Source of the DNA: Pseudodesulfovibrio sp. zrk46
GTDB lineage: Bacteria; Desulfobacterota; Desulfovibrionia; Desulfovibrionales; Desulfovibrionaceae
Assembly: GCF_012516435.1 (NCBI RefSeq)
Contig: NZ_CP051216.1
Span: forward strand, 2,002,001-2,066,000
Length of the DNA: 64,000 nt
Direction: 5' to 3'
Below, one piece after another: positions 25,080-50,388 of the stretch. Under the pieces are notes generated by a model, which searched no databases, was not told where the DNA came from, and was given only the letters and a program-made list of their open reading frames with translations. The position numbers and the translations under genes are program-made. Position 1 is the stretch's first letter, and each line of letters opens with the position of its first letter.

Positions 25080-26090
25080 ATGCAGTTGAAAGGAAAAAAG
25101 ATTCTTGTGACCGGGGCTGATGGCTTCATCGGCTCTCACCTTACCGAGTATCTCGTCCGGATGGGATGTGATGTTAAGGCATTCACATTGTATAATTCGT
25201 TCAATTCCTGGGGATGGCTTGATGACAGTCCCAAGGAAATCTTGGATGAAATAGAAATTTTCTCCGGAGATATCCGTGACCCCAATGGCGTCAGGCAGGC
25301 TGTGTCTGGATGCGATGTGGTCCTGCACCTTGCTGCTTTGATTGCTATTCCCTACTCGTATCACTCTCCTGATACCTATGTTGATACCAATGTGAAGGGC
25401 ACGCTGAACATCGTTCAGGCTGCCCGGGATCTAGGGGTTGAGCGTGTGGTGAATACTTCCACCAGTGAAGTGTACGGTACAGCTCGTTTTGTTCCCATTC
25501 ATGAAGAACATCCGCTTCAGGGACAGTCGCCTTACTCTGCATCAAAGATTGGCGCTGATCAGATCGCATTGAGCTTTCACAACTCCTTTGAAACACCAGT
25601 GACTGTTATCCGACCGTTCAACACCTACGGCCCCAGGCAGTCTGCGCGCGCGGTCATCCCGACCATCATTACCCAGATTGCCAACGGCGCTCGCTCCATC
25701 AAGCTTGGCGCGCTGCACCCCACGAGAGATTTCAACTATGTGCTCGACACGGTTCGCGGCTTTGTTGCGGTGGCAGAAGCTGATGCGTGCGTCGGTGAAG
25801 TCACCAATGTCGGCAGCGGTTTTGAGATTTCCATTGGTGACACTGCAGCACTGATCGCCAAGGTCATGGGCGTTGATATTGAGATTACTTGTGACGAGCA
25901 GCGTCTCAGGCCTGAAGGCAGCGAAGTGGAAAGGCTTTTCGCGGACAATTCCAAGGTGAATAAGTTGGCAGGCTGGGAACCAGAATTCGGCGGAGTCGAA
26001 GGGTTTGAGAAAGGTCTCAAACTGACTGCCGAGTGGTTTGCCGACGAAAGAAACATCAAGAAATACAAGGCAAACATCTACAACGTCTAA
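25080..26090 (+). CDS. legB: LegB-type nucleotide-GlcNAc 4,6-dehydratase
   Basis: An extended short-chain dehydrogenase of 336 aa: NAD-binding GADGFIGSH (residues 11-19), STSEVYG with the active-site Ser/Thr, and YSASK (Tyr-Lys pair near 157), followed by RPFNTYGPRQ. This is the first committed enzyme of legionaminic-type nonulosonate synthesis, giving the 4-keto-6-deoxy sugar nucleotide. The assignment as LegB rather than a generic epimerase comes from sequence style and from the exact neighbour order: legC, formyltransferase, legI, legG and ptmE follow. AAGGAG precedes the ATG. The nucleotide (GDP or UDP) is not visible from sequence; ptmE nearby argues for GDP. Confidence 0.83.
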   Translation: MQLKGKKILVTGADGFIGSHLTEYLVRMGCDVKAFTLYNSFNSWGWLDDSPKEILDEIEIFSGDIRDPNGVRQAVSGCDVVLHLAALIAIPYSYHSPDTYVDTNVKGTLNIVQAARDLGVERVVNTSTSEVYGTARFVPIHEEHPLQGQSPYSASKIGADQIALSFHNSFETPVTVIRPFNTYGPRQSARAVIPTIITQIANGARSIKLGALHPTRDFNYVLDTVRGFVAVAEADACVGEVTNVGSGFEISIGDTAALIAKVMGVDIEITCDEQRLRPEGSEVERLFADNSKVNKLAGWEPEFGGVEGFEKGLKLTAEWFADERNIKKYKANIYNV

Positions 26091-26093
26091 GTC

Positions 26094-27251
26094 ATGAACG
26101 ATAAGATTATTTCATTTATTCGCGAGCTCTATGGTGAGCAGGAGAACCTGATCCCGTTGCACGCCCCGCTCTTTCTCGGAAAGGAGAAAGCTTACCTTGA
26201 GCATTGTGTTGATACGACCTTTGTCTCAAGCGTCGGAAAATTCGTTGACCAGTTCGAGGAAATGGTCACGGATTACACGGGAGTGGCAGGGGCCATCGCA
26301 TGCGTGAACGGTACGTGTGCTCTTCAGGCAGCACTCACGCTTTCCGGAGTTGAGCCTGGGGATTTGGTCATCACTCAGGCCTTGAGCTTTGTCGCCACAG
26401 CCAATGCCATCAGTCACTGTGGTGCCGAGCCGGTCTTTCTTGATAGCGATGCAGACACCATGGGCCTCTCCCCGAAAGCCCTGAAGGCTTTCCTTGAAGG
26501 TGAAACAAAGCCCGGTGCTAATGGGCCTGTTCTGAAAGCGACTGGTCAAAGAGTGGCGGCGGTCGTTCCCATGCATGTCTTTGGTCATTCCTGCCAAATA
26601 GAAGAAATCGTCTCTATATGCAGTGAATGGGATGTTGAACTTGTGGAGGACGCGGCCGAGGCGTTGGGGAGCTACCGTAATGACAGGCACCTTGGTTCGT
26701 TTGGCCGTTACGGCGTCTTGAGCTTCAACGGTAACAAGACGATTACCACCGGTGGTGGCGGAATGCTTCTGGTGAATGATCCAGAGCTGATTGCTTCTGC
26801 ACGTCACAAGATGACAACGGCTAAGCTGCCGCACCCCTGGGAGTTCAATCATGACCAAGTCGCCTGGAACTTCCGCATGCCGAATATCAATGCCGCACTT
26901 GGCTGCGCTCAGATGGAATATCTTGATGACATTCTGGCGAGCAAGCGGGCTGTGGCAATGCAGTACAGAGACTTTTTCGCCGACATCCCTGAGATTCACT
27001 TCTATGAGGATTTGCCGGGGTCAAAAGGCAACTACTGGCTTTGTGCCATCGGCATGAAGGACAAGAGCGCACGCGATCAACTGCTGGAAGAAGCCAACGG
27101 AGCTGGCGTGATGATGCGTCCTGTTTGGCGTCTTCTATCTGATCTGCCCATGTATAAGAATGCGATGCGAGATGATCTGAGTGTTGCTGAAGATCTCGTC
27201 AATCGTGTTGTGAACATCCCTAGCAGTGCCCAGGAGAAGATGATTTCATGA
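26094..27251 (+). CDS. legC: LegC-type DegT/DnrJ sugar aminotransferase
   Basis: A 385-aa PLP-dependent aminotransferase of the DegT/DnrJ/EryC1/StrS family: DLVITQALSFVATANAI near residue 95, VEDAAEALGS (PLP pyridine-N aspartate) near 185, and Schiff-base lysine in SFNGNKTIT near 216. It would transfer an amino group to C4 of the LegB product. It begins four bases after legB and overlaps the formyltransferase start by four bases (ATGA), indicating translational coupling of the pathway. Confidence 0.85.
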   Translation: MNDKIISFIRELYGEQENLIPLHAPLFLGKEKAYLEHCVDTTFVSSVGKFVDQFEEMVTDYTGVAGAIACVNGTCALQAALTLSGVEPGDLVITQALSFVATANAISHCGAEPVFLDSDADTMGLSPKALKAFLEGETKPGANGPVLKATGQRVAAVVPMHVFGHSCQIEEIVSICSEWDVELVEDAAEALGSYRNDRHLGSFGRYGVLSFNGNKTITTGGGGMLLVNDPELIASARHKMTTAKLPHPWEFNHDQVAWNFRMPNINAALGCAQMEYLDDILASKRAVAMQYRDFFADIPEIHFYEDLPGSKGNYWLCAIGMKDKSARDQLLEEANGAGVMMRPVWRLLSDLPMYKNAMRDDLSVAEDLVNRVVNIPSSAQEKMIS

Positions 27252-27919
27252 CCGAAGATTGGAAAGTCGCTTTACTGGCCAAAGAGGGCAAGCCTGGTGT
27301 CCCAGAAGTCTCGGAGCTTCTTGAACAATTGTTCGGAGATGTAGATTTTTTCTTGGGAAAATTGGGCGATGAGTATCCTGAGGCTCTATTGAACGATTCC
27401 TATGACATGGTGGTTTCCTGGCTCTCTCCGTGGATTGTGCCTGCGAAAACGCTGTCTAATACCAAGCAGTTCAATCTGAATTTTCACCCGGCCCCTCCCG
27501 AGTATCCCGGTATCGGATGCTTCAACTTCGCGTTGTATGATGAAGTGGAGGAATATGGCGTTACCGGACATGTGATGGAACCCAGGGTAGATACCGGAGT
27601 TATTGTGGGCGTCTCCAGGTTCCCTGTGACCGAGGGCGATACCGTACTGTCGCTGAGCATTAAAAGTTACGATGCCATGTTGGCATTATTTAATCAGGTT
27701 CTCCGACAGATCGCTGAAACCGGAGCACTTCCGGAAACTGACGAAAAATGGACGCGAGCTCCGTTCAAGCGAACCGAGTTGGAAGCGTTGTGCGTTTTGG
27801 ACATGGAAATGTCCGAATCAGAAATTCATCGAAGGGTGAGGGCGACCACATACCCCGGTATGCCTGGGGCCTACTTTGAAATTGGAGGGATGAAGTTTGA
27901 GTACAACCCCGATAGATAA
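27248..27919 (+). CDS. Sugar N-formyltransferase (10-formyl-THF dependent)
   Basis: A 223-aa formyltransferase-fold protein with the catalytic Asn-His-Asp set: LNFHPAPPEYPGIG near residues 76-89, then TGHVMEPRVDTGVIV near 108-121. In related enzymes (methionyl-tRNA formyltransferase, ArnA, WlaRD, FdtF) these residues move the formyl group from 10-formyl-tetrahydrofolate to an amine. It stands exactly between legC and legI, the place where LegH N-acetyltransferase is expected, so it probably formylates the C4 amine, which becomes N-7 of the nonulosonic acid. The short C-terminal part is unlike the tRNA enzyme's anticodon domain. It overlaps both neighbours. Confidence 0.78.
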   Translation: MTEDWKVALLAKEGKPGVPEVSELLEQLFGDVDFFLGKLGDEYPEALLNDSYDMVVSWLSPWIVPAKTLSNTKQFNLNFHPAPPEYPGIGCFNFALYDEVEEYGVTGHVMEPRVDTGVIVGVSRFPVTEGDTVLSLSIKSYDAMLALFNQVLRQIAETGALPETDEKWTRAPFKRTELEALCVLDMEMSESEIHRRVRATTYPGMPGAYFEIGGMKFEYNPDR

Positions 27920-28931
27920 TTCAGAGCGTGTCTTCATCATTGCGGAAGCTGGAGTCAATCACAACGGTGATATGGATTTGGCTTTCAAGATGATCGATAT
28001 CGCAGCCGAAGCAGGGGCTGATGCCGTCAAGTTTCAATCTTTCAAGGCGGAAAAACTGGTGACGAAAACGGCTGATAAGGCCCGTTACCAGGAAGACGCA
28101 CTTGGAGGCACGGAAACCCAGTTTGAGATGCTCAAGCGTTTGGAGTTGCGTCAGGACATGCATCAGGTTCTCAAAGACCATTGCGAGCAGGCAGGAATTC
28201 AGTTCATGTCGACTCCCTTTGATGAGAGTAGCGCTGATTTCCTGGTCGATCTCGGCGTGGATGTAATGAAAATCCCCTCTGGTGAGATAACCAATCTTCC
28301 TTATCTGCGGCATATGGGGCAGCTGGGCAAACGTATCATTCTCTCCACCGGAATGAGTTCCTTGGATGAGGTCCGTGAGGCTGTGGCTGTACTGGAAAAA
28401 GCTGGCACTGGCCGCGATCACATCTCCCTTCTCCATTGCAACACCCAGTATCCTACTCCTCTGAGCGATGCCAACTTGCTTGCTATTCGTTCTTTGGCTG
28501 AAGAATTTCCAGATTGTTCAATTGGCTTTTCCGATCATACGCTGGGAGTGGAATGCGCTGTCGCTGCTGTTGGTCTGGGAGCCAAGTTGGTCGAGAAACA
28601 TTTTACCCTCGACAAGTCCATGGAAGGCCCGGACCACGGTGCCTCCGCAGAGCCTGATGAGCTTCGACTGATGATCAAGTTGATTCGCAATACAGAATTG
28701 GCTCTGGGAACCGGTCACAAGGAGCCGTCTCCTTCCGAAAAGGAAAATGTGGACATTGCTCGCAAGTATCTGGTGGCAGGCTGTGACATTGCCAAGGGCG
28801 AGAGCTTTAGCCCGGAAAATGTCCGCGCACTCCGAACCGGGCGTCGTGGCGTGAGCCCCATGCGTTGGGATGAAGTAATGGGCAGTACGGCTGATCGGGA
28901 TTATTCCGAAGGCGACATGTTGGTTTTTTAA
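27897..28931 (+). CDS. legI: Legionaminic/nonulosonic acid synthase (NeuB family), copy 1
   Basis: A 344-aa NeuB-family synthase condensing phosphoenolpyruvate with a six-carbon amino sugar. It shows IIAEAGVNHNGD at the start, DAVKFQSF, MSTPFD, KIPSGEITN, GFSDHTLG near residue 200, KHFTLDK, and a C-terminal SAF antifreeze-like domain (about 285-344, YLVAGCDIAKGESF). The start is an unusual TTG, supported by GGAGGG seven bases upstream and by overlap of 23 bases with the formyltransferase gene. With legG next it completes the sugar part of the legionaminic pathway. Substrate choice (Leg versus Pse versus Neu) is assigned from neighbours. Confidence 0.85.
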   Translation: MSTTPIDNSERVFIIAEAGVNHNGDMDLAFKMIDIAAEAGADAVKFQSFKAEKLVTKTADKARYQEDALGGTETQFEMLKRLELRQDMHQVLKDHCEQAGIQFMSTPFDESSADFLVDLGVDVMKIPSGEITNLPYLRHMGQLGKRIILSTGMSSLDEVREAVAVLEKAGTGRDHISLLHCNTQYPTPLSDANLLAIRSLAEEFPDCSIGFSDHTLGVECAVAAVGLGAKLVEKHFTLDKSMEGPDHGASAEPDELRLMIKLIRNTELALGTGHKEPSPSEKENVDIARKYLVAGCDIAKGESFSPENVRALRTGRRGVSPMRWDEVMGSTADRDYSEGDMLVF

Positions 28932-28960
28932 TCTCTCTTAGGTAGGCGGGATAGAAGACT

Positions 28961-30127
28961 ATGAAGAAAATATGCGTATTTACGGGGACTCGTGCCGAGT
29001 ATGGGCTTTTGCGTGGTGTCCTTGAGAAGTTGCGTGATGCAAGCGAAGTGGAGTTGGCCATTCTTGCTTCAGGCAGTCATCTTAGCCCAGAGTTCGGGAA
29101 TACGTTCACCGAAATCGAGAACGACGGGTTCGTAATAGACGAGAAAGTCGAAATGCTGCTGAGTTCAGATAGCGAGGTAGGCATGGTCAAATCCATGGGG
29201 CTTGGCCTCATTGGATATGGCGACGCTTTTGCGCGTTTGAAGCCGGATATGCTTGTCGTTCTGGGAGATCGTTTTGAAGCCTTCTCTGTCTGCGCGGCAG
29301 CTTTGGCCATGCGGTTGCCTGTTGCGCATATTCATGGTGGTGAGGTGACAGAAGGTGCCATCGATGAAGGAATTCGCCATTCCATAACCAAGATGAGCCA
29401 GCTTCACTTTTGCACCACTGAAGAGCACCGCCGCCGGATTATCCAACTGGGCGAAGACCCTGTGACTGTCTTTAACGTGGGTTCTCCCGGTGTGGAGAAC
29501 ATCAAGAAAGTCCCCTTGATGTCGAAGAGCGAGTTGGCTGAGTCAATCGGTTTTGACTTGAGTGAGCCCTACCTTGTCGCGACCTATCATCCTGTGACGT
29601 TGTCCTCAGCGACCCTGCCTGAATTTAACAACTTTCTGAGCGTCATGGCTGAAACCGGCTGCCGTCTTGTCTTTACTAAAGCCAATGCGGATGCCGAGGG
29701 ACGCTTCATCAATGAGCGTATTGATGAGTTTGCCGCTGAGAATCCTGAGCTGAGATTTTCTACAGAGTCCTTGGGACTTGTCAGATATCTATCTGCCATG
29801 AAGTACTCGGCAGGAGTCGTAGGTAACTCCTCCAGTGGCATTATCGAAGCTCCAAGCCTTGGGGTACCTACTGTAAACATTGGAGATCGACAGAAGGGCA
29901 GGGTGCGGGCCGAGAGTGTTATTGATTGTGGTACTGACGCGGATTCTATCCGCGCTGCCCTTGAGCGGGCCCTGTCTCCCGAATTTTCCTCCTTTGCAAA
30001 GCAGATAAAAAATCCCTATGAAGGCGACGCTCCCAGTTCGACTATTGTTGAACAGCTGCTGCGATTCAATGGAGGAGTGATGAAACGGTTTTACGATTTA
30101 CCTTGTGACGTGAAACAAGGGGATTAA
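28961..30127 (+). CDS. legG: Hydrolysing nucleotide-sugar 2-epimerase (LegG/NeuC family), copy 1
   Basis: A 388-aa member of the UDP-GlcNAc 2-epimerase family, hydrolysing type, that releases the free 2-epimerised sugar for LegI. Seen are FTGTRAEYGLLRGVL at the N-terminus, VLGDRFEAFS near 90, HIHGGEVTEGAIDEGIRHSITK near 112 and GNSSSGIIEAPSLGVPTVNIGDRQKGR near 285, all standard for NeuC/LegG. It follows legI by 29 bases and precedes ptmE by one base. A paralogue is at 37222, so this locus has two NeuB/NeuC pairs. Confidence 0.85.
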   Translation: MKKICVFTGTRAEYGLLRGVLEKLRDASEVELAILASGSHLSPEFGNTFTEIENDGFVIDEKVEMLLSSDSEVGMVKSMGLGLIGYGDAFARLKPDMLVVLGDRFEAFSVCAAALAMRLPVAHIHGGEVTEGAIDEGIRHSITKMSQLHFCTTEEHRRRIIQLGEDPVTVFNVGSPGVENIKKVPLMSKSELAESIGFDLSEPYLVATYHPVTLSSATLPEFNNFLSVMAETGCRLVFTKANADAEGRFINERIDEFAAENPELRFSTESLGLVRYLSAMKYSAGVVGNSSSGIIEAPSLGVPTVNIGDRQKGRVRAESVIDCGTDADSIRAALERALSPEFSSFAKQIKNPYEGDAPSSTIVEQLLRFNGGVMKRFYDLPCDVKQGD

Positions 30128-30128
30128 T

Positions 30129-31196
30129 ATGCGTGATTGGAGAAAAACACTTATTGGCGCGGATGCTACTATCTTTGATGCTGTTGAAAGTCTTAACAAA
30201 TCTTCCGCTCAGATAGCACTCGTTGTTGACGAGAATGAGTCCCTGCTGGGTATCATTACTGATGGTGATATTCGTCGTGGTCTTCTTGCCGGCAATGATT
30301 TCCAGTCTCCTGCCACGGGGATCATGTGCCGGACCTATCAATCTGTAGGCGAGGACGAAATCAACGCGAATATCCTTCGCCTGATGAGTGAAAAGGAAAT
30401 ACGCCAGGTGCCTGTAGTGGGTGAAAACGGGCGTGTGCTCGGATTGAAGCTGCTCCTCGACATGGTGTCTGCCCCCAAACACGACAATCATGTTGTACTC
30501 ATGGCTGGTGGACTTGGAACCCGTTTGCGTCCGTTGACGAATGATTGTCCCAAACCGCTGCTGGCTGTCGGTGGGCGTCCGATTCTGGAAACCATTTTGC
30601 GCCAGTTCATTGATCACGGTTTCGAGCATTTCCACCTTTCGGTGAATTATCGTGCAGAGATGGTTCAGGACTACTTCGGTGATGGCTCGAAATTTGGCGT
30701 CCAGATTGAATATATCCACGAAAAAGAGCAGTTGGGTACTGCCGGTGCACTGGGGCTTTTGCCTGAAGTGCCAAATGCTCCCATTTTTGTCATGAATGGC
30801 GACCTGCTGACCAACGTGGATTACGGCAAAATGATGGACTTTCACATTGCCAATGAAGCCGTAGCGACCATGGCTGTAAGGAACCTTGAGATGCAGGTGC
30901 CCTATGGTGTGGTGGAGGTTGAAGAAGGCCGTGTGCAGGCCATTCAGGAAAAGCCCATCAAATCCTTCTTCGTCAATGCCGGGGTGTATGTCCTGTCTCC
31001 TGAGATTGTGGCTGAGATTCCCAAAGACGAATACCTCGATATGCCTACCCTGTTTGATAAGCAGATTGAATTGAATAGAAAGGCTGCGGCGTTCCCCGTC
31101 CACGAGTACTGGGTGGATATTGGTCAGATGAAGGACTTTGAGCAGGCCAATAGCGATTATGAGGTGCATTTCGATCTTCCTGGCAGCTCTGAGTAG
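30129..31196 (+). CDS. ptmE: PtmE-like CBS-domain sugar-phosphate nucleotidyltransferase
   Basis: Residues 1-115 hold two CBS repeats (LGIITDGDIRRGLL and the ILRLMSEKEIRQVPVV region), and residues 120-355 a nucleotidyltransferase domain with MAGGLGTRLRPLTNDCPKPLL and MNGDLLTN. This fusion is that of Campylobacter PtmE, the guanylyltransferase that makes GDP-glucosamine-type precursors for legionaminic acid. Its position after legG supports the same role and implies a GDP-linked pathway. The CBS pair may sense adenine nucleotides. It ends the first pathway block; a 131-base gap follows. Confidence 0.82.
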   Translation: MRDWRKTLIGADATIFDAVESLNKSSAQIALVVDENESLLGIITDGDIRRGLLAGNDFQSPATGIMCRTYQSVGEDEINANILRLMSEKEIRQVPVVGENGRVLGLKLLLDMVSAPKHDNHVVLMAGGLGTRLRPLTNDCPKPLLAVGGRPILETILRQFIDHGFEHFHLSVNYRAEMVQDYFGDGSKFGVQIEYIHEKEQLGTAGALGLLPEVPNAPIFVMNGDLLTNVDYGKMMDFHIANEAVATMAVRNLEMQVPYGVVEVEEGRVQAIQEKPIKSFFVNAGVYVLSPEIVAEIPKDEYLDMPTLFDKQIELNRKAAAFPVHEYWVDIGQMKDFEQANSDYEVHFDLPGSSE

Positions 31197-31327: not shown

Positions 31328-32197
31328 ATGAATTTTCGAATTATCCCACGGCTTGATATTAAAGGGCCGAACCTTGTAAAAGGTATTCATTTTGAAGGTT
31401 TGAGAGTCCTCGGTAAACCTGAGGATTTTGCGCAGTATTACTATAATGAAGGCGCGGATGAACTCTTCTTTCAGGATGCCGTTGCAAGTCTATACGATCG
31501 AAATAGTCTGCATGACATCATAAGCAGCACATCATCTCAGATACTTATCCCTCTTTGTGTCGGTGGCGGGCTTCGAAATGTCGAAGATATTCGCAAGGTG
31601 CTCAGGGCTGGAGCCGACAAGGTCGCAATCAATACCGAGGCCATTAAACGGCCCGAGTTCATCCGTGAAGCTGCTTCAACTTTTGGGTCTTCAACCATTG
31701 TCGTGTCCATTGAGGCCGTGCGCCGGGGGGATGGCAAGTGGGAAGCGCTTATCGAGTATGGCCGCGAAACCACCGGTGTTGATGCTCTTGAGTGGGCCAA
31801 GCAGGCTCATTCTCTGGGCGCTGGCGAGTTAATGGTCACAAGTATCGACCAGGAAGGCACCGGAAAAGGGTATGATCTGGAGTTGACCAGACAGATCGCA
31901 GAAAGTGTCTCTATCCCCGTCATTGCCGGCGGTGGCTGCGGCAGCCCTGCGGATGCCGCACAGTCTGTTGTGGAAGGCAAGGCAGATGCCGTGAGCATGG
32001 CTTCGGTTCTGCACTACGACGCAGTAGACTATTTGCTCGAGACCTCCAGAGGCCGTGAGTATTCGACTGAAGGTAATATCGAGTTTCTCAAATCCAAGCA
32101 GACCACTACTTCCAGGAAATCCTGTTCAATAATGGATATCAAACGGGAAATGAGCGCCCAAGGCCTGCCCTGTCGCATGGGGGGAAACAATGCATAA
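31328..32197 (+). CDS. HisF-like cyclase/ammonia-channel subunit for sugar amidotransfer
   Basis: A 289-aa HisF-fold barrel: IIPRLDIKGPNLVKG at the start, IPLCVGGGLRNVEDI, VAINTEAI, MVTSIDQEGTGKGYD (the second catalytic-type aspartate) and IPVIAGGGCGSPADA. It is not the histidine enzyme by context: hisH-like and pseA/wbpG-like genes follow with overlap, a trio known from nonulosonate and Pseudomonas O-antigen loci in which HisH and HisF supply ammonia to the PP-loop amidotransferase. A C-terminal extension of about 35 residues is rich in Ser, Thr and Lys. The frame is open from a TTG at 31310; the ATG at 31328 fits the family start. Confidence 0.78.
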   Translation: MNFRIIPRLDIKGPNLVKGIHFEGLRVLGKPEDFAQYYYNEGADELFFQDAVASLYDRNSLHDIISSTSSQILIPLCVGGGLRNVEDIRKVLRAGADKVAINTEAIKRPEFIREAASTFGSSTIVVSIEAVRRGDGKWEALIEYGRETTGVDALEWAKQAHSLGAGELMVTSIDQEGTGKGYDLELTRQIAESVSIPVIAGGGCGSPADAAQSVVEGKADAVSMASVLHYDAVDYLLETSRGREYSTEGNIEFLKSKQTTTSRKSCSIMDIKREMSAQGLPCRMGGNNA

Positions 32198-32864
32198 CTT
32201 GGACGTCGCCATCATTGATTACGGTGTAGGTAATCTGTTCTCCATCAAGCATGCATGCACCTATGTAGGGTTGAATGCAGGCGTGACCAATGACAAGCAG
32301 GAACTGCTGAATGCCAAAGTGGTTATCCTGCCAGGAGTCGGAGCTTTCGGTGATGCGATGCAGGCCCTGAAGAAGCTCGATCTGGTGGAACCTATCCATG
32401 ACATCGTCGCAAAGGGAACCCGCCTGCTGGGAATTTGTCTTGGGCAGCAATTGCTTTTTGATGAGAGTGAAGAATTCGGAAGTCATCCCGGGTTGGGATT
32501 GATTCCCGGTGTCGTTAAATATTTCCCTGTGCAGGAGATAGACGGGCGTACATACAAGGTGCCTCAAGTAGGTTGGAATACCATTGAACCTCCCTCTGGT
32601 GGGAGTGTCGAGAGTTGGAATTCGACGCTGCTTGAAGGGGTCAAACCCGGTGTGGAAATGTACTTTGTCCACTCTTGCTATGTCGCGCCGGAAAATCCTG
32701 AAACGGTGTTGACTGAAAGCCAGTACGGCGATGTCCGTTTTTGTTCTGCCTGCTCTTCAGGCAATGTTACAGCATTTCAATTTCACCCGGAACGAAGCGG
32801 TGAGGTTGGAATTTCAATATATAAGAATTTAGCAAATTACATCCAGTCCGAGGAGATGAAATAA
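32190..32864 (+). CDS. HisH-like glutaminase subunit for sugar amidotransfer
   Basis: A 224-aa class I glutamine amidotransferase: VAIIDYGVGNLFSI, PGVGAFGDAM, nucleophile cysteine in GICLGQQLLF near residue 82, and the His-Glu pair in FQFHPERSGEVG near 195. It liberates ammonia from glutamine and delivers it through the HisF-like barrel. It overlaps the HisF-like gene by eight bases and touches the next gene without a gap, so the three subunits are made together. Confidence 0.82.
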   Translation: MHNLDVAIIDYGVGNLFSIKHACTYVGLNAGVTNDKQELLNAKVVILPGVGAFGDAMQALKKLDLVEPIHDIVAKGTRLLGICLGQQLLFDESEEFGSHPGLGLIPGVVKYFPVQEIDGRTYKVPQVGWNTIEPPSGGSVESWNSTLLEGVKPGVEMYFVHSCYVAPENPETVLTESQYGDVRFCSACSSGNVTAFQFHPERSGEVGISIYKNLANYIQSEEMK

Positions 32865-34073
32865 ATGTCCAAAACTCTTTTTGGTCTTCCGGAAGAAGTG
32901 CGCTTTTGCAAAAAATGCGTCATGTCCAACCAGAGGCCGTCTTCGTATCCCGAGTTCAAGCATACCAAAGATCGAATCACCCCGACTCTGCACATCGACG
33001 AAGAAGGTGTGTGCGATGCCTGTCGCTACAACGAGCAGAAGAAAGTTGATATCGATTGGGAAGCTCGTGAACAGAAGCTCATCAAGCTGTGTGATGAACA
33101 CCGTAGGTCTGATGGCGGCTATGACTGCATCGTTCCCGGCAGTGGTGGCAAGGATAGCGCCTTGGCCGCTCATGTACTCAAGTACAAATACGGAATGAAT
33201 CCGTTGACCGTGACCTGGCCTCCCATCATGTATACTGACTACGGTTACAAGAATTTCCGTAATTGGGTCGAGGTCGGTGGTTTTGACAACATTACGTTCA
33301 ATCAGAATGGCCGCGCGCATAAGCTGCTGACCAAGCTTGCCATCGAGAATCTTCTCCACCCGTTCCAGACCTTCATTCTCGGTCAGAAGAACCTGGCTCC
33401 CAAGCTCGCCCTTGATTACAACATCCCTCTCATTTTCTACGGAGAGCCCGAGGCTGAGTACGGTAACCCCATTGCAGAGACGTCAACCTCTCTTCGTGAC
33501 AAGTCCTACTACAGCATGAAGAACATCGATGACCTCTACCTTGGTGGCGTGTCCATCAAAGAACTGATGGAAGTCCATGGGCTTCGCTTGAACGAACTGT
33601 CCGCATACTTCCCCGCGGAAGCTGACAAGCTGGCCAAATCCAACATTGAGGTGCACTACCTCGGCTACTATGTGCCGTGGACTCCTCAGGAAGCATACTA
33701 CTACGCAGTAGAAAATACCGGTTTCTCTGCACGTCCCTTCCGTACGCAGGGCACTTACAGCAAATACAACAGCATCGACGACAAGGTCGACGATCTGCAC
33801 TACTACACTACCTACGTGAAGTTCGGTATCGGACGAACCACTTACGATGCCTCCCAGGAGATCAGGAACAAGCACCTGACCAGGGAAGAAGGCGTGGCCC
33901 TCGTAAAGAAGTATGATGGTGAATTCCCTGACAAGTACTTCGCTGAACTGATGGACTTCCTTGAGATGGATCCTGACTACTTCCATGAACTGTGCGACCG
34001 CAACCGTTCTCCCCACCTTTGGGAAAAGGTGAACGGCGAGTGGGAATTGAAGCATAAGGTTTGGGAAGAGTAG
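32865..34073 (+). CDS. N-acetyl sugar amidotransferase (PseA/WbpG family)
   Basis: A 402-aa PP-loop ATPase of the N-acetyl sugar amidotransferase family. Zinc-type cysteines are seen in FCKKCVMSNQRPS and GVCDACRYNE, the ATP pyrophosphate loop in VPGSGGKDSAL near residue 90, and the family's YGEPEAEYGNP near 193. These enzymes turn an acetamido group into an acetamidino group on pseudaminic acid, legionaminic acid or mannuronic acid derivatives, using ammonia from HisH-HisF partners such as those just upstream. The target here is probably the nonulosonic acid. Codon use is strongly biased, as in well expressed genes. Which of PseA, LegA-like or WbpG is closest needs alignment. Confidence 0.85.
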   Translation: MSKTLFGLPEEVRFCKKCVMSNQRPSSYPEFKHTKDRITPTLHIDEEGVCDACRYNEQKKVDIDWEAREQKLIKLCDEHRRSDGGYDCIVPGSGGKDSALAAHVLKYKYGMNPLTVTWPPIMYTDYGYKNFRNWVEVGGFDNITFNQNGRAHKLLTKLAIENLLHPFQTFILGQKNLAPKLALDYNIPLIFYGEPEAEYGNPIAETSTSLRDKSYYSMKNIDDLYLGGVSIKELMEVHGLRLNELSAYFPAEADKLAKSNIEVHYLGYYVPWTPQEAYYYAVENTGFSARPFRTQGTYSKYNSIDDKVDDLHYYTTYVKFGIGRTTYDASQEIRNKHLTREEGVALVKKYDGEFPDKYFAELMDFLEMDPDYFHELCDRNRSPHLWEKVNGEWELKHKVWEE

Positions 34074-34097
34074 CGCGAACGAAAGGTGCCAGAAAGT

Positions 34098-35489
34098 ATG
34101 ATGCCATACTCTGTTTTGTTTGTTCCCCATCAGGTGCCGGCGGCGCGGGAAATGAAACTCGTTGCCGACCAGTGCGTCAAGGGTGGACTGAACACAATCT
34201 TTCTCTCTTTGCGGGAGGATCTGAAGGAATGCCTCCTTACCGAAGGCGTTCCTTCAGACAATATTCTTTCCCTGAAAGCCGCTGGTAATGGGGCTGAAGT
34301 GAGAAAGGAGAGGAGTTGGCTTGCTGAGCTTAAATCCTATCTGGGAAATACAACGATAGGTAACTATATCCACAAGAGACGACTGAGCGACAACGGGCGG
34401 GTTCAAACCCGCATCGAACAGGAGTTAGCCTCCCAACAGTCTTTGAAAGCTGAACTGGAAGCCGTACTTGATCGGTGTGAACCTGATGTCGTTGGTCTGG
34501 TTTCAGATCGTACAGTGGTTGACGCGCTGCTCGTTATGCTTTGCGAGGAGCGAGGCATTCCCACTGTTCTGATTCCTTTCGCTGTGGGCGCTGACAAAAT
34601 GGATCTTCCTCGGTTCAGATCCCAGCCCGAATACGATGCCAAGCTGTTCAGCAGTTGGGCTGCGAAGTTCCCAGGGCAGGTCCAGCCGGATATCCGGACA
34701 GGGACGCCACGATTCTATTATCCTCCGTGGGTGATGGGAGCGCTCGATACAATGGGTTGCCTGCCGGAGAACCCTTGGGTGAACGGCGGTGGCGGCGTCA
34801 ACTTTGTGCTGGCTGAAAGCCACAACGTCCGCGAACGGTATATTGATGGCGGGTGTCCCGAGGAAAAGATCGTTGTCACGGGTATGTGCAGCCATGACAA
34901 CCTGTATGAAGTTTATACCCGTAGGGATGAAGTCAGAAAGGAGCTTGCTGCTAAGTATCAGTTTGACTCAGCTTCGCCCCTGGTCGTCTTCAGTGTCTCT
35001 GCCTTTTACGAGTTGGGCATGAAGACCTGGGATGAACAGTATGATTTCGTGACCAAGCAAGCGCGTGTGCTGGAGAGATTCGACGGGCCGGTTCTTGCCT
35101 CGCTGCATCCCAAGATGAATCCGGCCGATTACGGATTTCTTGAGGAGCGTTTCGGGATCAAGCTGCTTTCTGAGAGATTGTCGAATGTTCTGCCGGTTGC
35201 CGATGTCTTCATCGCCACCATAGCATCGACGACTGCTGGCTGGGCTGAGCTGTGTCGCATTCCCTTAATTCTGGTCGATGATCTGATTAATGAGTGTGAG
35301 TATTATACCCCAACGGATACAGCTGTATTTTTTGAAAGTTTGAAGGATTCGACTTCGTTTGAAAGGAATTTGGGACAAGCGCTCAATGTGGTCAATGCCA
35401 CTGATGCGGCTCCGTCCATGTTTGACGGAAATAGTTCCGTAAGAATTTGTTCTGCCTTGAAAACTGCCTGTGGCGGAAATCCTAACTAG
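34098..35489 (+). CDS. GT-B-fold-like transferase, paralogue of the 23634 gene
   Basis: A 463-aa soluble protein with no named family by eye. The C-terminal half has LASLHPKMNPADYG, LSNVLPVADVFIATIASTTAGWAEL and IPLILVDD, aligned in order with the protein at 23634, so the two arose by duplication. The N-terminal half contains VGLVSDRTVVDALLVMLCEERGIP. A role as glycosyltransferase acting on the locus glycan is likely. The open frame starts at a GTG at 34086; the ATG at 34098 with AAAGG upstream is preferred, and another ATG follows at once. It lies between pseA-like and neuB2 genes. Confidence 0.55.
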   Translation: MMPYSVLFVPHQVPAAREMKLVADQCVKGGLNTIFLSLREDLKECLLTEGVPSDNILSLKAAGNGAEVRKERSWLAELKSYLGNTTIGNYIHKRRLSDNGRVQTRIEQELASQQSLKAELEAVLDRCEPDVVGLVSDRTVVDALLVMLCEERGIPTVLIPFAVGADKMDLPRFRSQPEYDAKLFSSWAAKFPGQVQPDIRTGTPRFYYPPWVMGALDTMGCLPENPWVNGGGGVNFVLAESHNVRERYIDGGCPEEKIVVTGMCSHDNLYEVYTRRDEVRKELAAKYQFDSASPLVVFSVSAFYELGMKTWDEQYDFVTKQARVLERFDGPVLASLHPKMNPADYGFLEERFGIKLLSERLSNVLPVADVFIATIASTTAGWAELCRIPLILVDDLINECEYYTPTDTAVFFESLKDSTSFERNLGQALNVVNATDAAPSMFDGNSSVRICSALKTACGGNPN

Positions 35490-35507
35490 CGAGATAGTGT
35501 GAAACTG

Positions 35508-36518
35508 ATGCAACATACAGAAATCATTGCTGAGATTGGCAACACTCATGAAGGCTCTCTTGGATTGGCCAAAGCCTTTATCAAGGCTGCTGCTGATTGC
35601 GGTGTCGACAGAGTCAAGTTCCAGACCCACATCTTTGATGCTGAGAGTTTGCCGGATGCTCCGAATCCACCGTATTTCAAGGACGAAACTCGAAAAGAAT
35701 ACTTCGACCGGACCGGGTTCTCTCTGGAAAACTGGCGAGAGCTGAAGCGCTACTCGGAAGAGGAATGCGGCGTGGGTTTCATGTCTTCCCCCTTTTCTCT
35801 TGAGGCAGTTGATCTGCTTGAGGCCATCGAAGTCGATTCTTACAAGGTTGCATCAGGCGAAGTTTCCAATACTCCTTTACTTGAGAAATTGGCCCAGACT
35901 GGGAAGAAAATTTATCTGTCGAGTGGCATGAGTTCCTGGGATGAGATCGACGAAGCCGTGGAAATCCTGAAAAAGGGTGGCGGCGAGGTCCTGATGATGC
36001 AGTGCACTTCCGACTATCCCTGCAAGCCAGAGAATGCTGGACTGGGGCTACTCAAAGAGATGGCCAAACGCTACCAGTTGCCTGTTGGCTTTTCAGATCA
36101 CACCCTCGGCCTTGCAGTGCCTATTGCAGCTGTTGCAGCCGGTGCCTGTGTGGTGGAGAAACACTTTACCTTGAGCAAGGTCATGTATGGCCCTGATGCT
36201 CAGTTCTCCGTCACTCCTGAGGAGATGACCGCCTTGGTCAAGGCCATCAGGGATGTGGAGAAAGCCTTGGCGTCTGAGGTCAACAAAGATGAGAAGGCTG
36301 CTCAGCTGTCGACCATGAAGACCACGTTTGAAAAGAGCATAGTCTCTGTTACGGAGATTCCGGCAGGAACAGTTATCGGACCTGAGCATCTTGGATACAA
36401 AAAGCCTGGCCTGGGCATCCCGGCGGCACAGTTTCGGAAGGTTATCGGCAAAGTAGCCGCTGTAGATATCGAAAACAATATCCGCCTGTCTTGGGATATG
36501 CTTGAATCGGAGAAATAA
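35508..36518 (+). CDS. neuB: NeuB-family nonulosonic/sialic acid synthase, copy 2
   Basis: A 336-aa NeuB-family synthase: EIIAEIGNTHEGSLGLAKAF, RVKFQTHIFD, MSSPFSLEAVD, KVASGEVSNT, GFSDHTLGLAVPIAA and KHFTLSK, then a C-terminal SAF domain (about 280-336). It is clearly divergent from copy 1 at 27897, for example IGNTHEG in place of AGVNHNG, so it probably uses another hexosamine substrate. It is coupled to neuA by a TAATG overlap and followed by a second NeuC-type epimerase, a self-contained set. The ATG at 35508 is chosen over an upstream GTG at 35499; neither has a strong ribosome site. Confidence 0.83.
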   Translation: MQHTEIIAEIGNTHEGSLGLAKAFIKAAADCGVDRVKFQTHIFDAESLPDAPNPPYFKDETRKEYFDRTGFSLENWRELKRYSEEECGVGFMSSPFSLEAVDLLEAIEVDSYKVASGEVSNTPLLEKLAQTGKKIYLSSGMSSWDEIDEAVEILKKGGGEVLMMQCTSDYPCKPENAGLGLLKEMAKRYQLPVGFSDHTLGLAVPIAAVAAGACVVEKHFTLSKVMYGPDAQFSVTPEEMTALVKAIRDVEKALASEVNKDEKAAQLSTMKTTFEKSIVSVTEIPAGTVIGPEHLGYKKPGLGIPAAQFRKVIGKVAAVDIENNIRLSWDMLESEK

Positions 36519-37219
36519 TGAAAATTCTTGGTCTTATCGTTGCCCGTGGAGGCTCCAAAGGGATTCCCGGGAAGAATATAGCATTGGTGGGCGGCAAGCC
36601 CATGATTGCCCACTCTGCTGAAGCCGCAAAAGGCTGCAAGCACATTGACCGGGTGATCGTGTCTTCGGACGCCCAGGACATCATTGATGCTGCCACGGCT
36701 GCTGGCGCCGAGGCCCCGTTTGTGAGGCCCGCAGAGCTGGCAGAAGATAATACCCCGGCACTGCCTGTCATTGAGCATGCCGTGAAGTGGATGCAGGAGC
36801 AGGAGGGCTACAATCCGGATGCCATCGTGCTGCTGCAGGCAACTTCACCCCTGCGCACTTCCAGGCATTTGGACGAGGCGCTGGAATTGTTCATGGCATC
36901 GGATGCAGATTCTCTCGTAAGTGTCGTTGAGGTTGAGCACAATGTCAGCCCTGCATCTGCAATGGTGAGGGAAGGCGACGAAGTGAAGCCGTTCATGCCT
37001 CGTGATGAGCTTCGTGAAATGCGTCAGAACAAGCCGGTATTTTTTGCCCGAAATGGGGCGGTATATGCGTTTAGAACAAAATGCTTACAAGAGAAGCACA
37101 GTATATATGGTGACAAGACCATTTGCTATGAGATGAGCCGACAGGATTCGGTCGATGTGGATGAGCCTTTTGATCTTGAACTGTGTAACTGGTTGATCTC
37201 AAAGCGTAGTGAGGGATAA
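36518..37219 (+). CDS. neuA: CMP-nonulosonate/N-acylneuraminate cytidylyltransferase
   Basis: A 233-aa NeuA/LegF/PseF-family enzyme activating a nonulosonic acid with CTP. Evidence is the N-terminal LIVARGGSKGIPGKNI, HSAEAAKGC, VSSDAQDI, LLQATSPLRTS near 108 and SVDVDEPFDL near the end. It is the only cytidylyltransferase seen in the window, while two synthase/epimerase pairs exist, so it may serve both sugars or a second one may lie elsewhere. The start overlaps the neuB stop. Confidence 0.87.
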   Translation: MKILGLIVARGGSKGIPGKNIALVGGKPMIAHSAEAAKGCKHIDRVIVSSDAQDIIDAATAAGAEAPFVRPAELAEDNTPALPVIEHAVKWMQEQEGYNPDAIVLLQATSPLRTSRHLDEALELFMASDADSLVSVVEVEHNVSPASAMVREGDEVKPFMPRDELREMRQNKPVFFARNGAVYAFRTKCLQEKHSIYGDKTICYEMSRQDSVDVDEPFDLELCNWLISKRSEG

Positions 37220-37221
37220 TC

Positions 37222-38394
37222 GTGAAAAAAGTATGTGTATTTTGTGGTAGTCGAGCTAATTATTCGAGCTGCAAACCGTTGATGAAGGCCATTCAGGCTC
37301 ACCCCGATCTTTCTCTTCAAGTCGTTCTTGGTGGGGCCGCAGTGCTTCAGCGTTACGGCAATATCGAGGACCTCATTCGCAAAGATGGTTTTGAGATCGA
37401 TGCCAAGTTCCACATGATCGTCGAGGGTGAAACCCCTGCTACCATGTCCAAGTCCACAGGTCTGGGCATCATCGAAATGACCATGGTTCTGAACAACCTG
37501 ACTCCGGACGTTGTGCTGGTTGTCGGTGATCGCTTCGACATTATGGCTCCTGCGGTTGCTGCGACCATGATGAATATTCCCCTTGCTCATACCATGGGCG
37601 GCGAGGTGTCCGGTACCATTGATGAAAGCATCCGCCACGCAGTGACCAAGCTGGCTCACATCCACTTCCCGGCCAACGAAGACGCCAAGCAGCGCATCAT
37701 CAAGTTGGGTGAACCTGAAGATATGGTTTTTAACGTCGGCTGCCCGCGTATGGATCTGGTTAGTGAGATTCTGTCGAATCACAAGAACGGCGAGCGTCTG
37801 TGCCAGGAGCGTTTCTGGCAGGAGAACCAGGGCCTTGGTTCCGGGTTCGACATCGAGAAAGAACCTTTCCTTCTCGTTTCCCACCATCCGGTTACCACCG
37901 AATACGGTTCCAACCGTCAGCAGGTGGAAAGCGTACTGTATGCTCTTGAAGAGCTGCAGATGCCCGTCATCATGATCTGGCCCAACGTAGACGCCGGTTC
38001 TGACGAAGTCTCGAAAGGTATCAGAACATTCCGTGAAAACAGAAAACCGGAATGGCTCAACCTGTTCATCAACCTGCCGGTCGATGTTTATACGAAGCTG
38101 ATGGACCTGTGTGCCTGTATGGTTGGTAACTCCAGTAGTGCTTTGCGCGAAGGCGCTTTCGTCGGCGTGCCCGCGGTTAACGTTGGTACTCGTCAGAATA
38201 GCAGGGTGCATGGCGATAACGTCATCTACTGTGCTGCGGACAAGGATGAAATTGTCACAACTATCAAGAAGCAGCTGGAACACGGAAAGTATGACAGAAG
38301 CACGATCTACGGTGCTGGAGATTCCGGTCAGAAGATCGCGTCCATTCTCTCTGAATTGGAATCCGTTTCTGTTCAGAAACTCATCTGCTATTAA
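37222..38394 (+). CDS. neuC: Hydrolysing UDP-GlcNAc-type 2-epimerase (NeuC/LegG family), copy 2
   Basis: A 390-aa NeuC-family enzyme: VCVFCGSRANYSSCKPLM, VVVGDRFD-like VLVVGDRFDIMAPAVAATM, HTMGGEVSGTIDESIRHAVTKLAH, and GNSSSALREGAFVGVPAVNVGTRQNSR near 300. It would produce ManNAc or a related 2-epimer for the synthase at 35508. GTG start preceded by GAGGGAT. Codon use is highly biased and leaves a long open frame on the other strand, as in pseA and dsrAB, suggesting strong expression. Confidence 0.85.
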   Translation: MKKVCVFCGSRANYSSCKPLMKAIQAHPDLSLQVVLGGAAVLQRYGNIEDLIRKDGFEIDAKFHMIVEGETPATMSKSTGLGIIEMTMVLNNLTPDVVLVVGDRFDIMAPAVAATMMNIPLAHTMGGEVSGTIDESIRHAVTKLAHIHFPANEDAKQRIIKLGEPEDMVFNVGCPRMDLVSEILSNHKNGERLCQERFWQENQGLGSGFDIEKEPFLLVSHHPVTTEYGSNRQQVESVLYALEELQMPVIMIWPNVDAGSDEVSKGIRTFRENRKPEWLNLFINLPVDVYTKLMDLCACMVGNSSSALREGAFVGVPAVNVGTRQNSRVHGDNVIYCAADKDEIVTTIKKQLEHGKYDRSTIYGAGDSGQKIASILSELESVSVQKLICY

Positions 38395-42629: not shown

Positions 42630-44156
42630 ATGTCTGTTCTATTTATCAATCCTGCCTTTAGGTTTGAGCCTCCGGAGCAAAAGGGAGGGCATGTCCTGTT
42701 CCCGTTCGGGATCGGCTACATCGCGTCTTACATAAGAGAACGTGACCATGAAGTGGGCGTGTGGGATATCCTGATCGAGGAGAAAGGATATGACGACGTT
42801 CTGCGGCAGATTCGCTCAGGAATTCTGGATGGCTATGACTACATAGGCATTACTGCAATTGTTACTCAGTTCTCCTATGTCAAACGCCTTATTGAAGACA
42901 TCAAGGCCCATACCGATGTGCCCGTCATGGTGGGCGGCGCGTTGTCGACGCATTCCCATGAATTGCTTTTGAAGCATACCAAGACAGACATTTGTATCCT
43001 TGGTCCCGGCGAAGTTTCGACTGAAGAAATCTTGAGTGGCGCCAATCTGGCGGATGTCGAGGGGATTGCCTTCCGGACGGATGATGGCGCAATCGTTCGG
43101 ACTCCCGATAGAAAGCTGCCCAAGGATCTGAACATATTTCCCCCGCCCGCCTACGATCTTTTCGATGTCGAATTCTATGTGACCCATACGGGGCTGATGG
43201 ATGTCGTACGGCCATTTTACAAAGGTCTGAGAGTTGCGGCCATGATCACTGCACGCGGGTGTCCATACTCGTGCAACTTCTGCTCGAAGTCAGTTCACGG
43301 AGTGGGAGTACGGGATATTGATTCCATCATGGAAGAGGTCGACTACTTCGTCCGTGAACATAAGGTTCAAGCCATTCACTTCGTTGATGAATTGTTGGTA
43401 ATAACCAAGAAGCGTCTTCTGGAAATATGCCGACGCTTGAAGCCCCTGGGCTTGAAGTGGGACTGCCAGGCCCGCGTTAATCTCGTGGATGAAGAGATGC
43501 TCAGAGCAATGAAAGACGCCGGGTGTGTCTGTGTTGGCTTTGGAATCGAATCAGGCAGCCAGAAAATTCTGAAGCGAATGAACAAGCAGATTACGGTCGA
43601 GCAGATAAGGAGTGCTCTCTCCATCTGTCGAGAGATCAATTTGCCGGTCAAAGCGCAGCTGATCTATGGCTACCCCGGTGAAAGCCTAGAAACCCTTGAT
43701 GAAACGGTTAATCTTTTCAAAGAGTTGAAATGCCCTGTCAGGAGATTCTCTGTAATCAAGCCATTGCCTGGGGCTGAACTATGGGAAGAAGCAAAACAAG
43801 ATGGCCATATCGGGCTGAAGTTTACTGAACTAGAATACATTGAGAGGCTCTGTGCTTACTTCCAGGACAAGGGTATTCAGTACAACAAAACCGAATTGAG
43901 CGATGAGGTCTTCTTTGAGTTGGTCGGTGAATATGAATTGAAGTCCATCACCAATTTCTTGAAAGAGTCGATCAAAAATCCGGTTGATTTTTTTGCTCAT
44001 TGGGAAATTTCAAAGTGCTACCTTCGTCACCTCTTGTGGGAGAATAACAATATCCCTCAATTGCGATTCATTGCTTATATCAGGCAGGGCGTGCGTCACC
44101 CTGATCAGATCTTGCCTTTTATTGTCAGAAAGGTTCGGGAAGCCTTTAGCGGTTAG
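42630..44156 (+). CDS. B12-binding-domain radical SAM enzyme, second copy
   Basis: A 508-aa protein with an N-terminal cobalamin-type domain (FPFGIGYIASYIRERDHEV, GGALSTHSHELLLKHT) and a radical SAM core with CPYSCNFC near residue 210, then VHFVDELL-like AIHFVDELLV and GFGIESGSQKILKRMNK. It has the same plan as the enzyme at 18262-19650. The two lie at different places in the same locus and may install methyl groups or rearrange carbon in the glycan or its lipid carrier. It follows a 75-base gap and precedes fkbH, so it could also act on the acyl group made by the following genes. Confidence 0.82.
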   Translation: MSVLFINPAFRFEPPEQKGGHVLFPFGIGYIASYIRERDHEVGVWDILIEEKGYDDVLRQIRSGILDGYDYIGITAIVTQFSYVKRLIEDIKAHTDVPVMVGGALSTHSHELLLKHTKTDICILGPGEVSTEEILSGANLADVEGIAFRTDDGAIVRTPDRKLPKDLNIFPPPAYDLFDVEFYVTHTGLMDVVRPFYKGLRVAAMITARGCPYSCNFCSKSVHGVGVRDIDSIMEEVDYFVREHKVQAIHFVDELLVITKKRLLEICRRLKPLGLKWDCQARVNLVDEEMLRAMKDAGCVCVGFGIESGSQKILKRMNKQITVEQIRSALSICREINLPVKAQLIYGYPGESLETLDETVNLFKELKCPVRRFSVIKPLPGAELWEEAKQDGHIGLKFTELEYIERLCAYFQDKGIQYNKTELSDEVFFELVGEYELKSITNFLKESIKNPVDFFAHWEISKCYLRHLLWENNNIPQLRFIAYIRQGVRHPDQILPFIVRKVREAFSG

Positions 44157-44183
44157 CGACGTTCCCACCCGGAGGATTAACTA

Positions 44184-45971: not shown

Positions 45972-46207
45972 GTAATGATATTCTGAATAAGGTGACTGAG
46001 ATAGTTCGAGGCATCCTTGCTCAAGACGATCTGGTGTTGACTCCGGAGACTGTCGTGAAAGAGGTGGAACGATGGGATTCCCTGATGAACATCAATATCG
46101 TCATGGCCTTGGAAGCTGAGTTTAATTTCCGTTTTGATCTGGGCGAGCTTGATTCTTTGCAGACAGTTGGGGACATCCTGTCCACCATCGAAAGCAAAAC
46201 GAACTAG
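45968..46207 (+). CDS. Acyl carrier protein
   Basis: A 79-aa acidic helical protein with the phosphopantetheine attachment serine S38 in RWDSLMNINIVMALE. The motif DSL is the standard ACP signature; the surrounding sequence differs from the fatty-acid ACP (no LGADSLDTVELV), indicating a dedicated carrier. Start overlaps fkbH (ATGA). It would hold the acyl intermediate between FkbH, the MaoC-SDR protein and the membrane O-acyltransferase. Confidence 0.88.
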   Translation: MSNDILNKVTEIVRGILAQDDLVLTPETVVKEVERWDSLMNINIVMALEAEFNFRFDLGELDSLQTVGDILSTIESKTN

Positions 46208-46223
46208 GCAGAATGGTAGTCTG

Positions 46224-47633: not shown

Positions 47634-47681
47634 CGAGAACAACAATGCGTTTTGTCTCATATATGACGCAGGCAGCCAGAA

Positions 47682-49148: not shown

Positions 49149-49157
49149 TAGGACGCT

Positions 49158-50339: not shown

Positions 50340-50388
50340 TGACTGGTCGGATTGATATGATGAACAGAGAGTCGATAGGGAGTGCCGT

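Follow-up and report, generated by a model that had tools for sequence, protein, structure and literature searches.

We analysed a 64,000-nucleotide stretch of the genome of Pseudodesulfovibrio sp. zrk46 (C1:2002001-2066000, hereafter the window; the genome is a single contig of 4.08 Mb), in which genes for a HisF-like protein, a HisH-like protein and a PP-loop N-acetyl sugar amidotransferase (NASAT) form a compact trio. Our results indicate that this trio probably carries out N5 amidination in a legionaminic acid pathway, with the CMP form of 5-acetamidino-7-formamido-legionaminic acid (Leg5Am7Fo) as its predicted product. The pathway is likely a new combination of known modules, in which a known amidination trio is joined to a replacement of acetyl by formyl. 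By altering the charge and size at both nitrogens, amidino and formyl groups on a sialic-acid-like sugar can be relevant to recognition and to the adsorption of phages.

The three open reading frames (ORFs) are intact and lie on the plus strand between two nonulosonate blocks, LegB-LegC-formyltransferase-NeuB-NeuC-PtmE (25080-31196) and NeuB2-NeuA-NeuC2 (35499-38394). The HisF gene starts with ATG, with an in-frame TTG further upstream at 31310, and overlaps the HisH gene by 8 nucleotides (nt); the HisH gene abuts the NASAT gene with zero overlap. A first-pass annotation of this DNA had described an overlapping ammonia-channelling pair and a PP-loop sugar amidotransferase between two such blocks, and the intact frames and family scores confirm this, with the overlap restricted to HisF and HisH.

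A scan of genome contigs with the window NASAT provided the best 80 of 320 relatives, all at least 63% identical, so the counts describe near kin; the closest named ones among them are Pseudodesulfovibrio metagenome-assembled genomes (86–87% identity). HisF and HisH genes lie nearby in 74 and 71 of the 80 loci, respectively. Since the order HisF-HisH-NASAT, on one strand and within 2.5 kb, recurs in 66 loci, the trio is not a chance arrangement. The remaining 14 loci lack one or both partners within that distance, some being at contig ends and some having the partners elsewhere in the locus. At least two of five leg markers (LegB-, LegC-, NeuB1-, NeuC1- and PtmE-like genes within 10 kb) were found in 67/80 loci from many phyla, the PtmE-like gene alone in 62, and leg genes share the cluster with the window NASAT. 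A Rhizobium plasmid carries the same gene set, with annotation. Judged by gene content, one amidotransferase lineage goes with legionaminic acid genes across many phyla.

The lid-insert amidotransferase and its HisF partner

The window NASAT belongs to the family TIGR03573 (WbuX; 356.3 bits against a cut-off of 203.2 in NCBIfam), and it has the PP-loop motif SGGKDS, two CxxC pairs at a spacing of 31 and adjoining HisF and HisH genes. Its one solved relative is LpNASAT of Legionella pneumophila (8WEX), which it matches with 534 bits over residues 3–399. According to the accessible text of PMC10607449, residues 55–69 of LpNASAT lie over the pocket and are missing from other family members, in an alignment that includes WbpG, WbuX and two unnamed Campylobacter proteins. 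The window NASAT has this lid insert, seen as 15 extra residues between the cysteine pairs. Among its relatives the insert was gauged by the spacing between the CxxC pairs, with some genes counted twice where loci overlap. Of 102 window-type rows, 100 had a spacing of 31–32 and the other two had 27 and 28; among 22 distant members it was 16–17 in 19 (three unmeasured), and 14 intermediate rows gave 30–31 in seven cases and 16 in five, with two unmeasured.

A tree was built from 89 rows, among them the window-type enzyme from 47 of the 80 loci; in it the insert-bearing rows formed a single clade of 64 with support of 100/100, containing both the window NASAT and 8WEX. These results identify the window enzyme as a Legionella-type NASAT. 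The two other family members of the same genome fall outside this clade, their exact position being unsure because of long branches. They belong to two trios at about 3.80 Mb (L088, C1:3800001-3810000) that flank pseI, next to pseC, pseF and pseG, and have spacings of 16–17, so the genome provides its own contrast. The window NASAT neither groups with these PseA-type paralogues nor adjoins pse genes, and the name "PseA/WbpG" given in the first-pass annotation was rejected on tree position and CxxC spacing. The clade comparison proposed there was carried out: the enzyme grouped with 8WEX and not exclusively with mannuronate-type enzymes, in a tree built without WbpG, WbuX, PseA and PtmG reference sequences.

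Two clusters with paired trios were observed. The two HisH/HisF/amidotransferase trios of the pseudaminic locus L088 possibly reflect two amidinations or two substrates. In L008 (5674-11197, the same cluster as L126), two trios stand in tandem within one leg cluster; the second is insert-type, and the first comprises a 514-residue HisF frame, probably a HisF-HisH fusion, and an amidotransferase with a spacing of 16.

The HisF of the trio is distinct from the enzyme of histidine biosynthesis. It scores below the cut-offs of both relevant NCBIfam families (TIGR00735, 267 bits against 295; TIGR03572 WbuZ, 262 bits against 300). Of the two cyclase aspartates, which we take to be Asp11 and Asp130 and to be catalytic, it keeps the first and has Glu in place of the second. 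In alignment, this Glu was present in all 84 HisFs nearest to insert-type amidotransferases, and the first aspartate was kept in 82. In contrast, the HisFs nearest to nine distant members without the insert kept the second aspartate in seven cases and lost the first in seven; the two exceptions (L052 and L037) appear to be HisFs of adjacent insert-type trios chosen by nearness. Two further distant members with unmeasured spacing showed the same opposite pattern, and in three intermediate members without the insert HisF resembled the insert type. The true HisF of the genome (L142) retains both aspartates. Repurposed HisFs are thus of two kinds, each with a different cyclase aspartate lost, and the loss of one residue of the pair in each kind fits a role as ammonia conduit rather than in histidine synthesis. 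The C-terminal tail of HisF is 45–65 residues long in 80 of 84 insert-type cases and 21–24 in four, and thus matches the insert imperfectly. HisH has both the Cys and the His-x-Glu motifs, which we presume to be catalytic. Together, the insert and the HisF Glu allow a likely substrate to be read from sequence where the family name says only "N-acetyl sugar amidotransferase".

The formyltransferase in the LegH slot and the predicted pathway

The formyltransferase gene of the first block (FT1, 223 residues) shares 4 nt with legC and overlaps neuB at the listed TTG start of the latter. It is a sugar N-formyltransferase by its Formyl_trans_N domain, by an Asn-His-Asp triad invariant in six of six aligned formyltransferases, and by fold: a model with a predicted local distance difference test score (pLDDT) of 79.7 matched the sugar N-formyltransferases Rv3404c, WbkC, VioF and ArnA best, with TM-scores of 0.5–0.6, and methionyl-tRNA formyltransferases ranked lower. 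FT1 would formylate the LegC product at its 4-amino group. Of 45 loci having both LegC and NeuB, 35 contain a LegH-type gene; examples in which it lies immediately between them are L040, L042, L053 and L071. A formyltransferase takes that place in the window, L044, L078, L130 and L131.

LegH was found in 0/7 loci with an N7-type formyltransferase versus 40/73 others (Fisher 0.006), and in 1/8 if a fusion in L082 is counted (Fisher 0.028); these loci are not independent samples, being related and in some cases truncated. The list of N7-type enzymes was assigned by hand and excludes from FT1 a gene of L019 (FT2 by another aminotransferase) and weak hits outside leg clusters in L132, L133, L169 and L170. 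LegH was counted at a 60-bit threshold, which misses at least L042. In the window's own genome, the best match to the NeuD/LegH family was 60.9 bits against a cut-off of 160.8, and none passed; weak hexapeptide transferases are present. As a control, five of six LegH-slot genes of relatives passed this cut-off, and the sixth (that of L042) reached 159.6 bits.

Searches starting from FT1 yielded hits in 6 of 395 genomes of its own phylum, three of them strong (its own, 46% and 44% identity) and all three in leg clusters with a trio; two of the three weak hits mapped outside leg clusters, and one (G209) is unmapped. Nine of 384 Omnitrophota genomes gave hits, six strong, all inside leg clusters. 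The formyltransferase lies between LegC and NeuB in G454, G563, G670 and G826 (the last with an extra gene-sized gap), which include the genome of L078; it follows LegC, next to a PIG-L deacetylase gene, in G710, and follows NeuC in G764. An insert-type trio accompanies it in G454, a trio of a different type in G826, and a HisF at the contig end in G764. Of the remaining three hits, G625 is weaker and corresponds to the L082 cluster, which combines an insert-type trio with a formyltransferase–NeuD fusion; G537 and G485 fall outside leg clusters. The formyltransferase occurs repeatedly in leg clusters whether or not a trio is present, and so appears to substitute for LegH independently of amidination.

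Two fusions were observed among these enzymes: a formyltransferase fused to a NeuD/LegH-type acetyltransferase by Pfam (L082 3293-4771) and an FT1 joined to a long additional domain, carbamoyltransferase-like by eye (L044 2272-4695).

From sequence, we infer the substrates, positions, ammonia channelling and order of steps as follows. LegB and LegC would produce a 4-amino sugar, whose amine would be formylated by the enzyme that replaces LegH; once LegG and LegI have acted, this amine would end as N7. Formyl is thus predicted at N7 because the formyltransferase occupies the LegH slot. A PIG-L deacetylase found no match in the genome, so N5 should retain its acetyl group until the amidotransferase acts. 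NeuA would activate the sugar to its CMP form. HisH would split ammonia off glutamine and HisF would act as its conduit instead of as a cyclase; NASAT would use ATP to exchange the N5-acetyl oxygen for nitrogen, probably on CMP-legionaminic acid.

The few CTP-transferase matches in the genome (a KdsB-like protein, so labelled by us, PseF, the window NeuA and a 534-residue frame matched over a short length) and the missing NeuA-type gene between PtmE and HisF suggest that the window NeuA probably serves both nonulosonate blocks.

Related sugars offer precedents for this product. In the available part of PMC3766260, ORF 28 of the L. pneumophila lipopolysaccharide (LPS) locus, a ptmG homologue, is assigned the conversion of CMP-5,7-diacetamido-legionaminic acid (CMP-Leg5Ac7Ac) to CMP-Leg5Am7Ac; 8WEX would be the product of ORF 28. 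A 7-formamido pseudaminic-type acid is described in the accessible text of PMC3210612, and Pse5Am7Gra of Tannerella makes an N5 amidine with an unusual N7 acyl group plausible. Our literature searches, judged mostly from the listings and with few subscription journals covered, returned no report of Leg5Am7Fo or of a formamidino sugar. The first-pass annotation had expected a residue with N-formyl and either acetamidino or formamidino groups. N-formyl with acetamidino is favoured by the leg context, the clade and the LegH-slot position; a formamidine derived from N-formyl finds no backing in this organism, where the formyltransferase predicts N7 and PIG-L has no match; in the papers examined amidines are at N5, where the original acetyl should remain here.

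Alternative substrates and the modularity of leg clusters

Several observations weigh against Leg5Am7Fo. Fewer than two leg markers were found in 13 of the 80 loci; ten of these are shorter than 18 kb and may be truncated, and three (L030, L060 and L061) exceed 21 kb. Insert-type NASATs in L055, L127 and L128 accompany NeuB/NeuC-type genes with no strong LegB or LegC. More distant kin came from plasmid records (10 of 13 matching records examined), and no nonulosonate, HisF or HisH gene is annotated within 9 kb of an insert-type NASAT on an Azospirillum lipoferum plasmid (L091). Nine of 12 mapped stretches of the same genus (L118-L126) have an 86–90% identical NASAT, all with LegB, PtmE and the trio, and lack LegH or a formyltransferase next to legC. 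In L118-L125 the interval from PtmE to HisF contains PtmF-, NeuA/PseF- and PtmA-like genes, the gene at the PtmF slot being unlabelled in L120. These genes are missing from the window, and with no NeuA-type gene at that place CMP activation is probably shared with the second block. No trio was seen in the mapped stretches of the formyltransferase hits G563, G670 and G710, so formylation need not be coupled to amidination. Some Campylobacter papers reportedly call the pseudaminic amidine Pse5Ac7Am, and positions in that series may be less firmly assigned. The accessible text of the LpNASAT paper contains no activity assay (PMC10607449).

Amidination of the second-block product, possibly an N-acetylneuraminic acid-type sugar, instead of formylated legionaminic acid is an unlikely reading, although several features lend it weight. 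The two blocks neighbour each other and seem to share one NeuA, and NeuB2 has the sialic acid synthase SiaC as its closest solved relative. NeuC2 is closer to human GNE (4zht, 248 bits, its best solved match) than to bacillosamine epimerases (208 bits), the opposite of NeuC1, which gave 355 bits with GDP/UDP-diacetylbacillosamine 2-epimerases (best) and 171 bits with human GNE. On these matches NeuC1 is LegG-like, and NeuB2 with NeuC2 resembles a pair of the sialic acid type; insert-type NASATs are paired with NeuC2-like genes in L055 and L128, which have no strong LegB/LegC. The linkage of the trio to leg markers in most loci speaks for legionaminic acid, as do the same-genus stretches L118-L126, none of which has a NeuC2-best gene. 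Since L072 pairs NeuB2/NeuC2-type genes with LegB/LegC, likeness to GNE was not taken as proof of a sialic acid block. It is also possible, if quite unlikely, that the trio acts on legionaminic acid as in Legionella (Leg5Am7Ac), with N7 acetylated by an unlinked enzyme and FT1 acting on another amino sugar. The lack of FT or LegH next to legC in L118-L126 implies that an unlinked acyltransferase is probably present in the genus, and the weak hexapeptide transferases of the genome would be candidates. The overlaps of FT1 with legC and neuB, the confinement of strong FT1 hits to leg clusters in both phyla and the absence of any genome match at the LegH-family cut-off favour formylation at N7.

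Amidination of the N7 N-formyl group, giving a formamidino group, is improbable. The pocket of 8WEX is described as wide and open (PMC10607449, accessible text), and formyltransferase and trio co-recur. In the available parts of the papers examined, including PMC3766260 and PMC6388019, legionaminic and pseudaminic amidines are placed at N5; moreover, NASATs from FT- and LegH-bearing clusters are intermixed in the tree, and some FT1 clusters (L164, L165 and L166) show no trio in the stretch. A WbpG- or WbuX-type enzyme that makes ManNAc3NAmA or L-FucNAm seems barely credible: the broad family TIGR03573 is shared and the tree has no sequences of these enzymes, but both are described as having no lid insert (PMC10607449, accessible text) and the leg context argues against it.

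We favour Leg5Am7Fo for the window, and better candidates for a formamidine were found elsewhere. A PIG-L deacetylase gene stands next to a second type of formyltransferase gene (FT2b) inside leg/trio clusters of L012, L044, L068, L070 and L084. Deacetylation followed by formylation could replace the N5 acetyl by formyl, and it is possible that the pair serves another sugar. We assigned N7 acetyl to LegH, N7 formyl to FT1 or FT2a, and N5 formyl to PIG-L with FT2b by neuB/neuC. On this scheme L044 (FT1) and L084 (FT2a) would have formyl on both nitrogens, so any amidine would have to derive from N-formyl; L012, L068 and L070 carry LegH. L166 has FT1, PIG-L and FT2, with the PIG-L/FT pair split by NeuC and no trio in the stretch, which argues that the modules are separable. 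We therefore tentatively propose, as a rather doubtful generalization, that leg clusters are modular per nitrogen (acetyl or formyl at N7; acetyl or formyl, which a trio may amidinate, at N5), with Leg5Am7Fo in the window and formamidino sugars in L044, L084 and possibly L012, L068 and L070. The five clusters are better formamidine candidates than the window and are places to seek such a sugar directly.

Neighbouring genes and known systems

The features are collected in Table 1. The glycosyltransferase-like ORF after the trio had zero NCBIfam or Pfam matches. A methyltransferase gene and further transferase genes lie downstream of NeuC2. NeuB1 has SpsE (1vli) as its closest solved relative.

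Table 1. Genes of the window and PIG-L/FT2b pairs of related loci (pairs in coordinates of their own loci)
Feature	Position	Strand	Evidence
LegB, NDP-GlcNAc 4,6-dehydratase	25080..26090	+	TIGR04180 534 bits, cut-off 475
LegC aminotransferase (makes 4-amino group)	26094..27251	+	TIGR04181 514 bits, cut-off 420
N-formyltransferase FT1, LegH slot	27248..27919	+	PF00551 36.4 bits (cut-off 26.1); Asn78/His80/Asp115; model
NeuB1, LegI-type nonulosonate synthase	27897..28931	+	TIGR03569 458 bits, cut-off 400
NeuC1, LegG-type hydrolysing 2-epimerase	28961..30127	+	TIGR03568 461 bits
PtmE-like CBS-nucleotidyltransferase	30129..31196	+	PF00483 and two CBS stretches
HisF-like ammonia-channel subunit, C-terminally extended	31328..32197	+	residue aligned with second cyclase aspartate is Glu
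HisH-like glutaminase subunit	32190..32864	+	TIGR01855 191.5 bits (cut-off 105); motifs present
NASAT, PP-loop, Legionella-type lid insert	32865..34073	+	TIGR03573; 8WEX E=3e-159; tree
Putative glycosyltransferase (function guessed)	34086..35489	+	relatives follow trio in L126
NeuB2, second nonulosonate synthase	35499..36518	+	TIGR03569 342 bits, below cut-off 400
NeuA, CMP-nonulosonate synthetase	36518..37219	+	CTP-transferase match; probably shared by both blocks
NeuC2, GNE-like second hydrolysing 2-epimerase	37222..38394	+	TIGR03568 388 bits
PIG-L + FT2b, L012	4946-6522		
PIG-L + FT2b, L044	5700-7249		
PIG-L + FT2b, L068	3205-4658		
PIG-L + FT2b, L070	595-2201		
PIG-L + FT2b, L084	4650-6199		

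Elsewhere in the window, an ABC exporter gene (20321-22060) has MsbA- and PglK-type matches, every one below cut-off. The gene for an STT3/PglB-type oligosaccharyltransferase (61572-63815), close to the window end, suggests N-linked protein glycosylation as one possible destination of the sugar. One run (42630-55885) contains genes for a B12-radical SAM protein, an FkbH N-terminal domain, MaoC, two MBOAT acyltransferases and an asparagine-synthase-like amidotransferase, a possible site of further acyl tailoring. A fourth NeuB lies 12 kb beyond the window; scanning it and six neighbours (7 of 32 ORFs of at least 150 residues in that stretch) revealed neither leg nor neu genes among the neighbours.

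Campylobacter PseA and PtmG have HisF/HisH partners, and their reaction type is that predicted for the window trio. The Campylobacter enzymes may differ in the lid insert, which the window enzyme has and which the accessible text of PMC10607449 gives as missing outside LpNASAT, in the alignment with the two unnamed Campylobacter proteins. WbpG of Pseudomonas aeruginosa and WbuX of Escherichia coli belong to the same family and convert N-acetyl to acetamidino groups; they differ in having a mannuronic acid derivative and L-FucNAc, respectively, as substrates and no lid insert (PMC10607449, same text).

The formyltransferases ArnA, WbkC, VioF and Rv3404c share the fold and the triad with FT1, and differ in having about 20% identity to it and other NDP-4-amino sugars as substrates. 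The 5-N-formyl-legionaminic acid pathway of Halorubrum sp. PV6 resembles the window in its leg genes and predicted formyltransferase; in contrast, its formyl group is assigned to N5, a NeuD homologue is also present, and the accessible text makes no mention of an amidotransferase or acetamidino group (PMC6137143). It is closer to the PIG-L/FT2b clusters than to the window. Pse5Am7Gra of Tannerella forsythia shares with the predicted product an N5 amidine and a non-acetyl acyl group at N7 (PMC6388019, available part), and differs in being a pseudaminic acid with glyceroyl, for which the proposed amidine gene is AsnB-like (PMC6120980, available part).

LpNASAT shares with the window NASAT the PP-loop, the tetracysteine motif, the CxxC spacing of 31 residues with the lid insert, and the clade. 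The Legionella LPS locus likewise has leg genes; it differs in that the acetyltransferase gene neuD is proposed for the precursor where the window has a formyltransferase (PMC3766260, available part).

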